The notes under the pieces are model-generated. The model was not told where the DNA came from. It was given only the letters and a program-made list of their open reading frames with translations, and did not search any database. This document shows, piece after piece, positions 1,096 through 16,790 of a stretch of DNA of 64,000 bases; position 1 is the first letter of the stretch, and each line of letters starts with the position of its first letter. The DNA comes from a bacterium (GTDB taxonomy: Bacteria; Pseudomonadota; Alphaproteobacteria; Acetobacterales; Acetobacteraceae). The stretch spans positions 26,880 to 90,879 of the forward strand of contig JAMFRO010000092.1 in NCBI GenBank assembly GCA_026224825.1. Direction: 5' to 3'. The position numbers and the translations under genes are program-made.

Positions 1096-1155
1096 TAAGA
1101 CAAAAGAAAATAAAATTGCGTTGATTTGCCCCATGTTCGTGAAAGGTTCTGCACG

Positions 1156-4100
1156 ATGACGGCGTCAGGTACAACTTCTGGTTATAAATTTAATCCAAGT
1201 TTTCAGACGGATTCCGAGGCAATTGAGGGCTTCGTAGTTCGCCAGGCCGAGTTCGAGGCGATTGTGGAGACATTGCGCGCGAATTCGCATGCCCCCCGGA
1301 ACCGCAACATCCTAATCACCGCTCCGCGAGGGGCGGGGAAGACTACGCTCGTCCGACGGATTTTGGCTGAAATTCGCACCATACCTGAGCTGGCGAATTC
1401 CTGGCATCCGGTGTTTTTAGGAGAAGAGAGCTATACAATCACGACACCAGGTGAGTTTTTCTTGGAGTGTTTGTTCCATCTTCAGGATCACTTGCAGGAC
1501 GATCGGTGGCGGCTGATCTACGAAGAAGTTGAGGCGCAGCGAGACGATGCAACGCTGATGTCAGCAGCGATAGTTGCTCTAAAGGAATTTGCGGCTGAAC
1601 AAGGAAAGCGGATGCTGCTTATTGTAGAGAACGTGCATATGTTAATGTGCGAGCAGATCGGCACAGGCATAGAGGTGTTGCGCCGCACGCTCAACGACGA
1701 CCCGGATTTTATGATGCTCGCCACCTCCGTGAAGGACCTGGCCGACGAAAACGACGAAGAGAATTATCTCGCATTTGTAAATGAGTACGAACTCCTTCAA
1801 CTCCGGCCGCTGAAACTATCAGAATGTCAAAAGTTATGGGAAGCTCTAACGCGGCAAGAAGTAAAACGAGAGAGAATTCGCCCATTGCAGATATTGACTG
1901 GTGGGAGTCCTCGTTTGCTTAGAATAATGGCTGAATTTGCCGTCGCGCCATCTCTTCATAACTTGATGGAAAATCTGAACCTCCTAATTGACCAAAATAC
2001 AGAATACTTCAAAAGCCAATTGGATAGCCTTCCGCCAATAGAAAGAAAAGTTTTCGCTGCTCTTTTGGACATCTGGGATCCATGCACGGCGAAGCAGGTT
2101 AGCGATAGCGCTCGCGTGAATGTCAATGTGGCTTCGGCTATGCTAGGGCGTTTAGCCGAGCGTGGCGCGGTCATTAAGCTTCCTGGGAAGGGGCGTGCCG
2201 TAACTTACCATGCGGCGGAACGCCTATTTAATATTTATTACCTAATGCGGAGGCGCAGCCACCCGTCCAGCCGTGTACGAGCATTGGTAGCGTTTATGAC
2301 GCAATATTATCGCGGAGACGAATTGATCGATACCACCGCGAAGTTAGTTGCTGAGGCGTGCTCGCTGGATCCTTTAAGCAGAGAAGAATATCATTCCACT
2401 TTCAGGGCGATCATTGCCCAATCGAGTCAGGAAGACCGGCAGAGAATTCTGGCTCAAACTCCGAGTGATTTTCTCTCTTCGATTAATGTTGGTTCTGAAT
2501 TGCAGATTGCCAATTCACACGATCCGTCAAACGTGGGCGAAGAAGCAATGTCTAAAAAACGGGGGAATCGAAAAGAGAAGACGAAATCCAGTGGGGCCGC
2601 CTCAACTCGCTCCGATAAAGGAATTTCGGCTCTGTTTAAAAGGGTCACAGCGGCTACCGATGCAGAGGATTACGGGGAAGCAGAAAGTTTATTGCGCGCT
2701 GCTATTGCAGATGATGGGTCAGATGGATTGCTCTGGCTCCAATTGACTTCAGTTCTAAATAGTGCGGGCAAGGGTGAGTTCGAGATTTTGGAGTCCGCGG
2801 AAAAAGCAGTTGAATTATTGCCGGACAATTCGGCCTCTCACGCGATTTACGGCGCTACATTATTCCGGTACAATAAGGATAATGCGCAAATAGAAAGTCA
2901 TTTGACGCAAGCGATTGAGCTGGATCCCACTAATGTTATGGCGTTATCGATCTACGGTGACGTGAAACACGTGTCACGGGATCTTGATGCTGCCCTCGAT
3001 TACTACCGTCGTGCTTGGGCTGAGGTGCCCGACAGTGAGTTTGCTCTTAGTGATGTCGTCTCGGTTCTCGGGCCGCATCTTGGCAAGTATGACGAGGCAG
3101 AGGAGTTGCTAAAGGAGGCGTTAAAAAGGCACCCCGAATGGCGTTTGGCCCGAAATGCACTGGTCGACAGTTTGGCTCGTCGGCATAGCTATTCGGAGGC
3201 GGAAAAAGCACTTCGAGATGGTATAAAGATAGACAAAAAATCGTCGAAGCGTTGGGCGGATCTTGGTCGTTTTCTTTTTTTCAAGCAACAACGATACGAT
3301 GATGCAAAAAGAGCGCTTGAACAGTCGCTGAAATTGGATCGTAAAGCCCCCAACGTTTGGATCACGTACGCGCGTGTATTAGAGCAAGTCGATAATTCAT
3401 TTGAGGAGGCGCTTAAGGCCGCCAATAGTGCAATTGAACTAGAGCCAGAATCGACCGAAGGCTGGCTCACATTGGGCAATATTTCCGGCAAAGGTGGAAA
3501 AGTATCGGAGGCCGAGGATGCGTTCCGAAGGGCAATTGCTCTAAACAGTGAGTCGGCGCGACTGTGGTATTATTTTGGTATGTTTCTAAAGAGGCAACCT
3601 GAAAGGATCGCAGAAGCGGAAGATGCATTTCGAAATGCGATGAAAGTCGAGGATGACTATCCGTGTACGGTACCGAATGAATTAGCGGCACTTTTAATCC
3701 ATCGCGGCGAAGACAAAGAAGCTGAACCGTATTTGACGCGGGCCATGGAGGTTAATAGCGAGTGCTCCTGCAGCCTAAATTTGTTGGGGGGCATCGCTGG
3801 TCGAGCGAGGGAAACTGCCAAAGCCAAAAATTATTTCGAGAAAGCCTTAGAGGTGGATCCGGACGGAATTGCCGCTATGACCGGGCTTGCCCAGCTCAGT
3901 TTGGAGAACGACGTAGATATTGGATTGGCCGAGTCATTAATAACCAAGGCCATGGGTATAAGGCCAAGAGACCCCCAGGTTCTATTGGCGCGAGCGTTTT
4001 TGAAGCGACATCAAAACGCAATGAATGAGTGTTTAGATGATCTGCGATCCGCACTCGACGAGGAAGCTGATTTTGTGGAAGCGAAGGTCGTGTTGGCGTC

Positions 4101-4419
4101 GGTTGAAGCTCAGCACGGTGACAGTGATAAGGCGCTGATTTATTTAACCGAACTAATGCGGAACCTGAAGTACAGGCGAGATCTTCTCCCGACGCTTGTG
4201 GAGACGTCCACAGCTTTGATGGTTCGCGGTTACGGCGCAGCCGTATTCCAGGCGATACAAGACACTGATACTGCCGAGTATCTGGAGCCTCTTTGTGTCG
4301 CTTTGCAACTGCTCCAGGGAGAAACGCCACTTGTTGCTAAAGAGGTAGAAGAAGTCGCCAATGACATCTTACGGCAAGTTCGTAGCAGAGGCGGCAGTGA
4401 GATGATCGATGAAGATTAA
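1156..4419 (+). CDS. STAND/SWACOS-like P-loop NTPase with winged helix and long C-terminal TPR array
   Basis: Walker A APRGAGKTTLV; Walker B-like RMLLIVENVHM; GGSPRLL (GxP-like) motif; wHTH-like VFAALLDIWDPCTAKQVSDSARVNVNVASAMLGRLAERGAV; many TPR-like repeats in the C-terminal half. Start taken at MTASGTTSGY. Confidence 0.8.
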   Translation: MTASGTTSGYKFNPSFQTDSEAIEGFVVRQAEFEAIVETLRANSHAPRNRNILITAPRGAGKTTLVRRILAEIRTIPELANSWHPVFLGEESYTITTPGEFFLECLFHLQDHLQDDRWRLIYEEVEAQRDDATLMSAAIVALKEFAAEQGKRMLLIVENVHMLMCEQIGTGIEVLRRTLNDDPDFMMLATSVKDLADENDEENYLAFVNEYELLQLRPLKLSECQKLWEALTRQEVKRERIRPLQILTGGSPRLLRIMAEFAVAPSLHNLMENLNLLIDQNTEYFKSQLDSLPPIERKVFAALLDIWDPCTAKQVSDSARVNVNVASAMLGRLAERGAVIKLPGKGRAVTYHAAERLFNIYYLMRRRSHPSSRVRALVAFMTQYYRGDELIDTTAKLVAEACSLDPLSREEYHSTFRAIIAQSSQEDRQRILAQTPSDFLSSINVGSELQIANSHDPSNVGEEAMSKKRGNRKEKTKSSGAASTRSDKGISALFKRVTAATDAEDYGEAESLLRAAIADDGSDGLLWLQLTSVLNSAGKGEFEILESAEKAVELLPDNSASHAIYGATLFRYNKDNAQIESHLTQAIELDPTNVMALSIYGDVKHVSRDLDAALDYYRRAWAEVPDSEFALSDVVSVLGPHLGKYDEAEELLKEALKRHPEWRLARNALVDSLARRHSYSEAEKALRDGIKIDKKSSKRWADLGRFLFFKQQRYDDAKRALEQSLKLDRKAPNVWITYARVLEQVDNSFEEALKAANSAIELEPESTEGWLTLGNISGKGGKVSEAEDAFRRAIALNSESARLWYYFGMFLKRQPERIAEAEDAFRNAMKVEDDYPCTVPNELAALLIHRGEDKEAEPYLTRAMEVNSECSCSLNLLGGIAGRARETAKAKNYFEKALEVDPDGIAAMTGLAQLSLENDVDIGLAESLITKAMGIRPRDPQVLLARAFLKRHQNAMNECLDDLRSALDEEADFVEAKVVLASVEAQHGDSDKALIYLTELMRNLKYRRDLLPTLVETSTALMVRGYGAAVFQAIQDTDTAEYLEPLCVALQLLQGETPLVAKEVEEVANDILRQVRSRGGSEMIDED

Positions 4420-12455: not shown

Positions 12456-13181
12456 ATGAAACTTCAAACGCGCAGGGCGGCCCTGACCGCCATCGCTATT
12501 ATTATCGCTGCTCCACTTGTCATGCCCTGGCATGCTGATGCGCAGGTTGCAGTCATTGATGCCGCAAATCTAACCCAGAATATTTTGACGGCGGCGAGGG
12601 AGCTTCAGCAGATCAACAACGAGGTCCAGTCGCTGCAAAATCAGGCGACAATGCTGGAGAACCAGGCAAAGAACCTGACCAGCCTGAACTTCTCGTCGCT
12701 CGATGGCATCACAAACGATCTCCAGCAGATCAGCAATCTGATGAACCAGGCACAGGGAATAGATTTCGATGTTCAATCGGTTGAGACAGCCTTTCAACAA
12801 GCTTATCCCCAACAATACGCCGCAGGCACAAGTTTTCCACAACTCCTGACGGACGCCCAAACGCGCTGGCAGAATTCACGGGATGCGTTTCAGCAGACCA
12901 TGACTGTGCAGTCGCAGATCGCGCAAACGGTGCAGACCGACACCGGCAAGCTCGCCGATCTCGTCGATGCCAGCCAGAGCGCGGTTGGCAACCTGCAAGC
13001 CCAACAGGCAACGAACCAGCTTCTCGCCCTTTCGATCAAGCAGCAGCTTCAAATCCAGACGATGATGGCAACGCAGGGTCGCGCCGAGGCGTTGAACGAC
13101 GCCAACAACGCCGAGTCCGAGGCGGAAGGCAGTGCTGCTTTCTCCACCTTCCTCGGCAGCAGCAACGCTTACGCCCCTTAA
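12456..13181 (+). CDS. trbJ: TrbJ, P-type conjugative transfer protein
   Basis: Signal peptide, coiled-coil QLQQINNEVQSLQNQATMLENQAKNL, C-terminus GRAEALNDANNAESEAEGSAAFSTFLGSSNAYAP. Confidence 0.92.
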   Translation: MKLQTRRAALTAIAIIIAAPLVMPWHADAQVAVIDAANLTQNILTAARELQQINNEVQSLQNQATMLENQAKNLTSLNFSSLDGITNDLQQISNLMNQAQGIDFDVQSVETAFQQAYPQQYAAGTSFPQLLTDAQTRWQNSRDAFQQTMTVQSQIAQTVQTDTGKLADLVDASQSAVGNLQAQQATNQLLALSIKQQLQIQTMMATQGRAEALNDANNAESEAEGSAAFSTFLGSSNAYAP

Positions 13182-13248
13182 CAATAGCACCAACCATCAT
13201 CTCCAGTTCCGTCTCGACTAAAGGAAATGCGGATCGTCGAGCGCGAGA

Positions 13249-14130
13249 TCAGGCTTTGACATTAAGCGATAGCATCCAATTTTCTGAGTATATTGGGGCG
13301 TATGGATTCTCAGGGTCGAGTTTTTGTGAGCTGCCACGCTGCGCGAATTTGCGCCAATCTAATACTCGTTCGTCTGTAACACCCAAAACTTCGTCCAAAA
13401 TATACCCCGCGCGGACCTTTGGAAGTTTTGCCTCGTGCTCATTTACGGCATCGATGATTTCATCGAGGTAGTCGTTGGCCTTTCTCCGCCAGACTTTGAG
13501 AACATTAGAAATACCACCGCACCAAGATGGGCGCACAACCATATCCAAAAAAATTTGTCCGGGTGTTGCTACCCGGCCGTATGGGGCCATGGTGCCCCAC
13601 TTGCCAGGATAAATCGTGTCATGGACAAGTATCGATCTTAATCGAACCTTTTCGGGAAAACGATATCTTGGGCGCTGGTAAGGGGCGGGCTCAATTGGAG
13701 TAGGTGTCTTGCTTTCTCTTAGATGCCACATTTCCCTCCACAGCTTGGATGCCGGGCGTGTGAGCATTAAGGTTTTGGAGCTTTGCTCGGTAAGACCCCT
13801 GAAGCGCATTGCAGACAAGTGCGAGATATATACAAATGGATCGGCTAAACAGCAGGTTGCTTCGGCATCTTGCTCAAAAACGCCGAGAACCTCATAATGT
13901 GTAGAACAGAAATCGCGATCTGGGCGAACGATCTTCGCCGCTTGGAGGCGTTTAATGACTCTCGAGATGTCTTGATCGACGACTGGTTTTGAGGCGGACG
14001 GCTTTCTGCTGGATTTTGAATGCTCTCCCGCGAGCACTCTTCGTACGAGGCGTTCCAAATCGCTCGCTGCGATAATTGAGGCATTTTGTTGTGTCAGGAT
14101 TTGACGAATAAGCGTCTTGGTCATTTGCAA
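13249..14130 (-). CDS. AbiEi-like (type IV antitoxin-like) winged-helix protein
   Basis: ISRVIKRLQAAKIVRPDRDFCSTHYEVLGVFEQ followed by LADPFVYISHLSAMRFRGLTEQSSKTLMLTRP, an AbiEi-type pattern. Confidence 0.55.
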   Translation of the reverse strand: MQMTKTLIRQILTQQNASIIAASDLERLVRRVLAGEHSKSSRKPSASKPVVDQDISRVIKRLQAAKIVRPDRDFCSTHYEVLGVFEQDAEATCCLADPFVYISHLSAMRFRGLTEQSSKTLMLTRPASKLWREMWHLRESKTPTPIEPAPYQRPRYRFPEKVRLRSILVHDTIYPGKWGTMAPYGRVATPGQIFLDMVVRPSWCGGISNVLKVWRRKANDYLDEIIDAVNEHEAKLPKVRAGYILDEVLGVTDERVLDWRKFAQRGSSQKLDPENPYAPIYSENWMLSLNVKA

Positions 14131-14175
14131 CCCGCATTTTCATGGTTTGAGGGAGAACCAATGCAATATTTGGGA

Positions 14176-14222
14176 GCATAGGATAGATTTAATGTCCTAA
14201 GGACATTAAATCTATCCTATGC
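14176..14222. repeat. Perfect 47-bp palindrome (23-bp arms, 1-nt centre)
   Basis: gcataggatagatttaatgtcct a aggacattaaatctatcctatgc, 45 bp upstream of the 14130 start codon. Confidence 0.95.
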
Positions 14223-14305
14223 GTATGTCTATAGGCGAAGCGTTCTTTTTAAAAATTCTTTATTTATCAACAAGTTGAATTTGATGCAGGCAAGGAAAAC
14301 GGCCC

Positions 14306-14350
14306 AAAATATAACTATCCCGTACTTCAAGTGCGGGATAGTTATATTTT
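14306..14350. promoter_or_regulatory. 45-bp palindrome upstream of the HipA-like gene (22-bp arms, one mismatch)
   Basis: aaaatataactatcccgtactt c aagtgcgggatagttatatttt. Confidence 0.85.
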
Positions 14351-14375
14351 TCTTGAATTTGGTGCCACATAATAC

Positions 14376-14408
14376 TAACTATCCCGTACTTCAGGTACGG
14401 AAAAGTTA
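14376..14408. promoter_or_regulatory. Second, imperfect copy of the same operator-like palindrome, abutting the TTG start
   Basis: taactatcccgtactt c aggtacggaaaagtta; left half identical to that of the 14306-14350 palindrome; centres 64 bp apart. Confidence 0.8.
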
Positions 14409-14410
14409 GA

Positions 14411-16249
14411 TTGGCACTTCACTTGATCGGCGACACGCTGGATAAGACCCGCAGTCATTATCGTGCTGGGACGGGGCAATTAATCCAGCTTATGCGCGGA
14501 ATTTATGTGGACTCAGACGACGATATTGACGCCGTCATCATGAAGCATGCTGTGCGCATTGCCAAATATCTTTATCCGCAAGCGTATCTCTCGGCAGCTT
14601 CAGCTGTGTTGCTTGGCCCGACCCAGGACGGTCGGTTATTTTTGAGTGCGAGACGCAAGCAGCGTACCCGCATTCGTTCCCTGGAAATTATCCAGAATCA
14701 AGCGCCGCTACATCCATCGGTGGGTGCAGCTATTGTTGATGATGGCATGGGTGAGTTCCGCATAAATGCTTCATCGATCCGCCAGCGCTTCCTGGAGGCG
14801 TTCCGAATTCGCAGTGAACATGCGGCGGCTATTGATGAAGAAATGCGAAAGGCGATCGCAATTCGCTTGAGCGAGGAATATGGGAGTCCGCACGCGGCAG
14901 CCGACGCTATTTGGGTCCTGGCTCGAGAGAACGAATGGTACCGCGAAGGAGAAGCCGCTGAGCGTTATTTACGCCGCACTCCCACTGTAGGATTGGTAAA
15001 AAACCGGGCTGCTTTCGATTTGATCGTCGCGTGGCACGGAAGACCGATCGGCCAGCTAAATCATGATGGCTTCGAATGGCGGTGGAACGCTATCAAAGAA
15101 AATGGCCCGGCACTCATAAGGCAAACCACCCCCGGAAAGCTTCCTCCGTTCATAGTATCGCTAATGCCGGAGGGGTGGCTGGAATCTGTGCTAAAAAATG
15201 CAGACGAGCGTACCCAACTCAAATCGGGTAAGCGCTATATGTCAAACGTCACGATTGTTGAGCAGCAAAGCGAGCTTGCGACTTTACCAGAAGATATATT
15301 GATCACGCGCCTTCTAGACTACGATAAAGATGGCACGTTCACGGGTCGTTACGCGGGGCCAGGTCGAGATCTTATGGATCATAATTTCGAGCGTAATCTT
15401 GCGAGCATTTATCAAAATGCAGAGACACCAAGGCTATCTGGCATTCAAATCAAAGCGCCCATGTACCTGGATGTCCACGGAGTGCTATCCCCAAGCACAG
15501 ATAAGCCTTTCACGCACATCCTAAAGCCAGCTGGTACGAGTGGATTCGATTTTCTTCCCATTATAGAATGGTTGGACATGTCGCTAGGGCGGGCCATCGG
15601 TTTCGATGTGCCGGCAGCCGTTCTCATTAAAATGCCCGATGGAATGCCCCCAGCATTGCTGGTAGAACGCTTTGATATACGTGAAGGACGTAATGACAAG
15701 CGTATGCTGGCATTGGAAGATTTTTGCTCAGTTCTCGATCTCTCAACGGCCGAAAAATACACTGGAACGATGGAACGTGTCGCGCGTGCGGTAAGATCAC
15801 TTTCGACCTCACCGGAAGAAGATTTGCTGATCCTCGTGAAACGGGCGCTTTTCGCTTGGTTGGTTGCGGATGGCGACATGCATCTCAAGAATATGGCTCT
15901 TCTGAAAACTGCTGAACCAGGCGACAAGACGTTTCGAACTGTCCGAGTGGCGCCTCTTTATGACTCGGTCACGACACGCGTATTTCCGGGACTGCAGCAT
16001 GATCGAATGGCTCTAAAATTGAATGGAAAAGATGAAAGACTACGTCGAGCGGATTTTCGGGCCCTCGCCAAAATCGCCGGTTTAAGTGTGACGGATACGG
16101 ATAACGCTATTGACGAGATGCTTGAGCGCATGAGGGCAGCGGTTGATGAGATCGTGCTTCCGCCAGACCTAGACTATGCAGACGAGGCCGCAAGACAAGT
16201 TGAACGGGTACTCGAAATCTGCCGTAACAGGCTAAATTCATTTAAGTAA
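14411..16249 (+). CDS. HipA-type Ser/Thr kinase with fused AbiEi-like N-terminal region
   Basis: N-term LMRGIYVDSDDDIDAVIMKHAVRIAKYLYPQAYLSAASAVLLGPTQDGRLFLSARRKQRTRIRSLEII is AbiEi-like; C-term has HipA motifs SLMPEGWLESVL, FTHILKP, LLVERFDIREG, LEDFCSVL, ADGDMHLKNMALL, APLYDSVTTRVFPG. Confidence 0.8.
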   Translation: MALHLIGDTLDKTRSHYRAGTGQLIQLMRGIYVDSDDDIDAVIMKHAVRIAKYLYPQAYLSAASAVLLGPTQDGRLFLSARRKQRTRIRSLEIIQNQAPLHPSVGAAIVDDGMGEFRINASSIRQRFLEAFRIRSEHAAAIDEEMRKAIAIRLSEEYGSPHAAADAIWVLARENEWYREGEAAERYLRRTPTVGLVKNRAAFDLIVAWHGRPIGQLNHDGFEWRWNAIKENGPALIRQTTPGKLPPFIVSLMPEGWLESVLKNADERTQLKSGKRYMSNVTIVEQQSELATLPEDILITRLLDYDKDGTFTGRYAGPGRDLMDHNFERNLASIYQNAETPRLSGIQIKAPMYLDVHGVLSPSTDKPFTHILKPAGTSGFDFLPIIEWLDMSLGRAIGFDVPAAVLIKMPDGMPPALLVERFDIREGRNDKRMLALEDFCSVLDLSTAEKYTGTMERVARAVRSLSTSPEEDLLILVKRALFAWLVADGDMHLKNMALLKTAEPGDKTFRTVRVAPLYDSVTTRVFPGLQHDRMALKLNGKDERLRRADFRALAKIAGLSVTDTDNAIDEMLERMRAAVDEIVLPPDLDYADEAARQVERVLEICRNRLNSFK

Positions 16250-16299
16250 TTGGGAACTTGTCGAGACCTGCTCACCTTAAATAGCGGTCCGGCTGTTCG

Positions 16300-16740
16300 A
16301 GCGTAGACCCGCTTGTTTCAGCGTAGATAAAGTGACTGTTTCTTTTGGCCATTTTGCACGAGTCCTGTCTCCTAGAGTGCGCGCGCCATTCGCGCCTTTT
16401 CGGAGAGCGGTAGATGATCCCCACCCGTTTGCTAGAGGCAGCCTTGCAACGGCCTTGTCCCAAACACTGCGCTGAGGTGGGGAGTTTTCGACAGCTGCCG
16501 ATCGATATCGCAGCTACCGACAGAACACGAGGGGCAGCTTTCAGCAAACCGTGTCCAGCCCAGCAGGGGACGCACCAACTCGTCGCCCTCTCGATCAAGC
16601 AACAGCGCCTGATCCAGACGATGATGGCAACGCAGGGCCGCGCAGAGGCGCTGAACGATGCCAACAACGCAGAGTCTAAAGCGGAAGGCGGTGCCGCCTT
16701 TTCGACCTTCCTCGGTAGTAGCAACGCCTACACCCCTTAG
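16300..16740 (+). pseudogene. Chimeric remnant: traG leader/start-like sequence joined to a trbJ 3'-end copy
   Basis: 16317-16437 resembles the traG leader and start (cagcgtagataaagt...ccattttgcacgagtcctgtctcctag...atgatccccac); 16567-16740 encodes LVALSIKQQRLIQTMMATQGRAEALNDANNAESKAEGGAAFSTFLGSSNAYTP, near-identical to the TrbJ C-terminus. Confidence 0.85.
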
Positions 16741-16790
16741 CATAGCGGCGAACGTCAACCGGGCCACCACGAGAAGGACGCGAGGACGAT

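Follow-up and report, generated by a model that had tools for sequence, protein, structure and literature searches.

The analysed stretch of DNA (the window, 64,000 nucleotides) carries a gene whose 612-aa product is a predicted fusion of an AbiEi-fold domain, a HipS-like domain, and a HipT-like kinase in a single chain. The reading that we consider probable is that of a one-gene, self-regulated HipT-type kinase, in which the AbiEi fold represses the gene, the HipS-like domain inhibits the kinase, and the divergent abiEi gene next to it is a separate relict. The initial annotation, which had described the two genes as an AbiEi-like/AbiEi-HipA fusion cassette, was right about both genes, including the coordinates, strands, and lengths of their ORFs (Table 1); it had, however, noted neither the HipS-like domain in the middle of the protein, nor the operators, nor where the insertion begins and ends. 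For the comparisons below ~89 homologue loci were read, with 88 scored for operators, 63 for residue conservation, and 33 scanned with PADLOC.

Table 1. Coordinates of the fusion kinase gene, its predicted operators and domains, and the surrounding features (positions in the window).
Feature	Position	Strand	Remarks
trbJ 3' end, left copy of direct repeat	12998..13183	+	
Vestigial abiEii start	13218..13262	-	14-codon ORF MSKPDLALDDPHFL; overlaps abiEi at its end
AbiEi antitoxin gene without AbiEii	13249..14130	-	293 aa; PADLOC; ATG at 14124 is the likelier start
AbiEi-type perfect palindrome	14176..14222	.	47 bp, core ATGTCCTAAGGACAT
Operator O1, predicted	14311..14345	.	palindrome, 23/30 vs family consensus
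Promoter, predicted	14353..14381	+	-35 TTGAAT (14353-14358), 17-bp spacer, -10 TAACTA (14376-14381)
Operator O2, predicted	14375..14409	.	26/30; ends 1 bp before start codon
AbiEi-HipS-HipT fusion kinase gene	14411..16249	+	612 aa, TTG start; ORF, HipA_C match
AbiEi-fold domain, predicted DNA-binding	14411..14980	+	residues 1-190; AF2, Foldseek, PADLOC
Candidate recognition helix	residues 12-20 of AbiEi-like domain		residue 12 covaries with operator
HipS-like domain (HipA N-subdomain 1)	15014..15415	+	residues ~202-335
P253-E254-G255-W256-L257	15167..15181	+	aligned with HipS Glu63/Trp65 motif
HipT-like kinase core	15431..16240	+	residues 341-610
Catalytic motif G488-D489-M-H-L-K-N494	15872..15892	+	residue conservation in homologues
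Partial trbJ 3' copy	16557..16742	+	83% identical; 48 bp before trbL (16791)

The HipA kinase claimed initially is confirmed by the HipA_C profile, which matches residues 342-577 (E = 6e-39), and the kinase extends to the C-terminus of the protein. Features of the HipA-like superfamily are all present, namely the HipA_C core, the Gly-rich loop, the catalytic Asp motif, and the Mg-binding Asp. Among the 63 homologues the invariant residues include S343, G344, Q346, and K348, as well as D489, H491, L492, K493, and N494 of the catalytic motif and D518 in APLYD. The best sequence matches of the kinase core are to HipT(Lp) (8ezr/7vkb, E = 4e-28), and Foldseek with the full-length model also reports HipT 7vkb (E = 2.5e-16). 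As for the Gly-rich loop, it reads RLSG: according to the alignment, there is no Ser at the place of HipA S150/HipT S57, and the invariant S343 falls at the place of HipT S59. This placement is our reading of the alignments, the residue conservation, and the HipBST paper.

Regarding the N-terminus, in which the initial annotation had seen AbiEi, the AlphaFold/Foldseek check proposed there and the PADLOC scan both agree with the claim. PADLOC AbiEi matches the single kinase sequence weakly (E = 0.015), and 33/33 scanned homologues match one or another of the PADLOC AbiEi models, with a best E of 2.3e-5. The AF2 model of residues 1-200 (pLDDT 90.6) has the S. agalactiae AbiEi 6y8q as its top PDB match in Foldseek (E = 2.2e-6, prob 1.00, full length), and the full-length model again retrieves 6y8q (E = 1.2e-4). 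TM-scores against 6y8q are only 0.48-0.49, and the first AbiEi wHTH helices are absent from the model, which has a short wHTH of one helix plus wing. Since direct profile comparison with the family of the window's AbiEi gave no significant match, hmmsearch of the N-terminus against PDB sequences returned nothing relevant, and the Pfam AbiEi models stayed below threshold for the kinase and its homologues, the link is visible only via the PADLOC AbiEi models and fold comparison. Judging from these profiles and models, the AbiEi likeness of the first ~200 residues is real at the level of the family.

Similar N-terminal regions were also observed in other proteins. The kinase N-terminus matches the N-terminal region of a Fic protein (L142, G030:C15) at E = 5e-4, and that of another Fic protein (L111:2462-3922) resembles PADLOC AbiEi more weakly (E = 0.005). 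In addition, stand-alone proteins of ~206-217 aa that resemble the kinase N-terminal domain are located on Pseudomonas and Xanthomonas MPF_I plasmids (L108:2977-3597 and L109:2896-3549). It is a tentative idea, and somewhat doubtful, that the AbiEi-like domain is a portable module turning unrelated toxins into one-gene, self-repressing, self-inhibited systems. If so, the toxin would be the HipS-HipT kinase here and Fic elsewhere (L142 and, more weakly, L111), and a separate antitoxin would be unneeded, unlike in HipBA or AbiE.

The operators O1 and O2 are imperfect ~35-bp palindromes (consensus CTAACTTTCnCGTATnTnAnATACGnGAAAGTTAG) with a spacing of 64 bp in the window. When a pair is counted only if both palindromes score at least 17 of 30 positions, it is found upstream of the start in 83/88 homologues, whereas shuffling of the upstream regions gives it in 0.06%. 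Most homologues have the two palindromes 62-65 bp apart, O2 begins 34-40 bp before codon 1, and the start codon lies at the same place or within two codons in the family alignment; operator-like sequence persists at 46% protein identity. Between the operators, TTGnnn stands 16-18 bp before TAACTT in 72/83 homologues, and the left arm of O2 doubles as the -10 hexamer, so that a protein bound to O2 would block RNA polymerase. Operator base 5 varies together with residue 12, which lies in the helix that precedes the wing: K12 occurs with C in both O2 halves (79/83), and A12 with T in both halves (5/5). On the kinase-only tree the A12/TT state needs two changes, both forced by well-supported branches, and the covariation rests on these two origins.

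This covariation is strong but indirect support for the binding of the operators by the AbiEi-like domain, and, together with operator conservation, it suggests that the domain very probably binds DNA and autorepresses its own gene. AbiEi proteins are known to autoregulate via inverted repeats, and Rv2827c does so via two sets (PMC7319586). A different explanation is that O1 and O2 are RNA hairpins or sites of another host regulator, the AbiEi-like domain serving for dimerisation or kinase inhibition. O2 does lie at the position expected for a 5' leader, no ribosome site is obvious there, and the wHTH is short. The palindrome arms, however, are conserved in sequence beyond pairing and covary with residue 12, and in the host genome (4.27 Mb) O1 and O2, both at the kinase gene, are the only two sites with three mismatches allowed. 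This explanation thus appears improbable.

As for the middle of the protein, profile comparison of residues ~194-350 with PDB gives as best matches HipS of E. coli HipBST (7ab4_B/7ab3_B), albeit weakly (E = 0.0025), and HI_0666 (7czo). The P253-L257 stretch, invariant in 63 homologues, aligns with the HipS stretch SLAPEGWL, with E254 and W256 opposite Glu63 and Trp65. In HipBST these two HipS residues point into the HipT active site, and the W65A substitution abolishes neutralisation of HipT (PMC10627512). Of 63 homologues, 43 match Couple_hipA, with E values of up to 1; the model has a confidence below 50 near W256, and ordinary HipA proteins may likewise have a Trp at this position. Judging from sequence, the HipS-like domain within the kinase is a better candidate for the inhibitor than the AbiEi-like modules.

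According to the preferred reading, the AbiEi-fold N-terminus would replace HipB and repress transcription by binding O1 and O2, which bracket the predicted promoter of its own gene. The HipS-like domain, perhaps with Trp256, would hold the kinase Gly-rich loop open and the kinase off; release of the protein or closure of the loop would let the kinase phosphorylate its target and stop growth, as for HipA and HipT. Toxicity of the kinase and its inhibition in cis are what we infer.

The divergent neighbour, which the initial annotation took to be AbiEi-like, is by sequence an ordinary AbiEi: its product matches PADLOC PDLC02237 at E = 3.8e-81 over profile positions 2-285 of 285. As had been stated, neither a HipB-type gene nor AbiEii is adjacent; moreover, no AbiEii is found in the window, nor in the genome (94% complete assembly) at the Pfam threshold. 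Relatives of this AbiEi directly precede AbiEii in 15/15 loci examined (L101-L107, L127, L128, and L143-L148), one of which, near recombinase genes, has AbiEii truncated by a stop after 57 codons (L145). The ATGTC overlap that starts the vestigial abiEii is the same as in relatives L102-L104, L106, and L107. A scan of viral contigs found no relatives of this AbiEi.

The initial annotation suggested a hybrid of two genes, with the divergent AbiEi repressing and neutralising the kinase. Indeed, the genes are adjacent and divergent with a common 280-bp intergenic region, AbiEi is intact despite the loss of AbiEii, and a Rhizobium locus (L005) also has an abiEi-abiEii pair divergent from a kinase homologue, although of a different AbiEi kind. 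The recurrence across genomes that had been proposed as a check is not observed, however, as a relative of the window's AbiEi occurs in 0 of ~89 kinase loci. Furthermore, the AbiEi palindrome, whose core is found once in the host genome, is unrelated to the kinase operators, and each type lies upstream of its own gene's relatives; profile similarity to the kinase N-terminus is, as noted above, undetectable. The two palindrome types, the missing AbiEi relatives at kinase loci, and the pairing of AbiEi relatives with AbiEii point to abutting, independent autoregulated units, and make the hybrid highly improbable. Thus, the earlier proposal that AbiEi-like modules act as DNA binders and neutralisers holds up for DNA binding by the kinase N-terminus, but not for the divergent AbiEi as a partner. 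Judging from these sequences, the simplest view is that an abiEi-abiEii operon lost its AbiEii and left the divergent AbiEi behind as a relict or orphan antitoxin, which might still serve in that role or as a repressor. The neighbourhood alone is misleading here, as the adjoining AbiEi is probably a relict.

Perfect palindromes of 39-57 bp with the core GTCCTnAGGAC are located upstream of abiEi in 15/15 relatives and in the window. Among the first 14 palindromes compared, similarity in the outer arms (positions 9-21) is no more than 30%, which is near chance, and the arms differ even between two palindromes at one promoter, yet they are fully self-complementary. AbiEi palindromes therefore seem to keep complementarity rather than sequence, which suggests selection for a hairpin or cruciform, or a templated repair process, behind the arms.

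The cassette sits between trbJ (ends at 13181) and trbL. In genus relatives these two genes are direct neighbours, with ~45-50 bp between them in three of the four, and in the window a partial trbJ copy flanks the cassette; the insertion thus either brought about a partial duplication of trbJ or occurred along with it, and the flanking 3' duplication marks the entry of the cassette into the conjugation operon. No plasmid match was found for the 16240-16760 stretch. Upstream of the conjugation genes, positions 1126-4419 of the window encode a 1097-aa P-loop ATPase with TPR-like repeats, which has a weak match to MADS mad8 (2.5e-5).

Homologues of the kinase are found in Alpha-, Beta-, and Gammaproteobacteria and in a few Acidobacteriota, Myxococcota, and Fibrobacterota bins. 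Plasmid records matching the kinase number 580, with 72 matching over at least 80% of the protein; species genomes gave 193 candidate stretches with a relative, of which the best 80 were read. Full-length homologues have 611-632 aa (nearly all 611-619), and NCBI names them only HipA domain-containing protein or type II HipA family toxin. More distant colinear relatives have 45-46% (G102 and G222) and 28% identity, the last one, from Thalassospira (L110), being without the Trp. The homologue in a relative from the same genus (G009) belongs to the other operator class (A12/TT), so the window's copy, as far as sequence tells, was probably acquired separately.

The gene is solo in annotated plasmid loci, and homologues are mostly solo overall. 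Clustering of flanking ORFs revealed no neighbour common across loci, giving only groups tied to particular sites (prfC in Betaproteobacteria and a single site in Mesorhizobium) and, in nine loci, an HTH gene. This small HipB-like HTH gene is near the kinase in L014, L026, L028, L032, L033, L037, L038, L041, and L063, several of them at the prfC site; a second hipA, of the ordinary kind, comes after it in L026, L037, and L063, while in others it is convergent to the kinase. By its sequence distribution, the kinase is a widespread, mobile, mostly solo module. It may have a role in plasmid/ICE maintenance or phage defence; for the latter, no evidence was found beyond family resemblance, and the full-length kinase was not found in phage records.

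That most loci are solo, with no separate antitoxin, is also what would be expected of a self-regulated signalling kinase or transcription regulator, which acts on its own domain or a housekeeping target and causes no growth arrest. The apparently strong autoregulation and the chromosomal copies near prfC in several Betaproteobacteria fit this alternative as well. In contrast, the kinase core is closest to HipT toxins, the distribution on plasmids is mobile, and overproduction of HipH/YjjJ, another solo kinase that has an N-terminal HTH, inhibits growth, according to the Hip kinase survey (PMC8262856). A non-toxin role is therefore regarded as rather unlikely.

An AbiEi-Hip kinase fusion was not found described in the searchable literature, where a search for HipBST with AbiEi gave only unrelated work, and the AbiEi-HipS-HipT fusion thus appears undescribed there. 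The survey, by Gerdes et al., lists solo HipH (N-terminal HTH) and HipL (HipS plus HIRAN domains) among Hip kinase families, and its text does not mention AbiE (PMC8262856). Its authors also state that, to be kept, a kinase should have a putative antitoxin gene next to it (PMC8262856), a rule that may explain the absence of the AbiEi-fused family from their set. The known Hip kinases belong to systems of two or three genes or are fused to DNA-binding domains of other kinds. A predicted repressor, inhibitor, and kinase in a single chain, together with the two conserved operators and the covariation of residue and base, would make toxin control without a labile separate antitoxin, and its release, directly testable.

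Among known systems, HipH/YjjJ resembles the window's protein in being a solo gene with an N-terminal DNA-binding domain fused to a Hip kinase. HipH (clade X), however, has a ~100-aa HTH and ~443 aa in total, aligning with HipT from the core, whereas the window's protein has a 190-aa AbiEi fold plus a HipS-like domain; its score with the YjjJ NCBIfam model is 13, against a cut-off of 401. HipL (kinase-HipS-HIRAN) is likewise a solo Hip kinase of three domains, one of them HipS-like and one DNA-binding, but it differs in domain order and has a C-terminal HIRAN as the DNA-binding domain; a domain profile search found no HIRAN match in the window's kinase. HipBST (E. coli O127, Legionella) has the same order of HipS-like and HipT-like domains, the PEGWL motif of HipS, and, in HipT(Lp), the closest kinase core by both sequence and fold. 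It consists, however, of three separate genes (hipB, hipS, and hipT) and binds DNA via the HipB HTH, in contrast to the single ORF and the predicted AbiEi fold here, and the two also differ in the serine positions of the Gly-rich loop described above. Finally, AbiEi of the AbiE type IV systems (6y8q, Rv2827c) shares with the window's kinase a similar fold, as predicted for residues 1-190, and inverted repeats at the promoter, here probably autoregulatory, while the kinase N-terminus has a shortened wHTH, no AbiEii partner, and a fused kinase. The fusion would link AbiE (type IV) and Hip (type II) systems through domain swapping.
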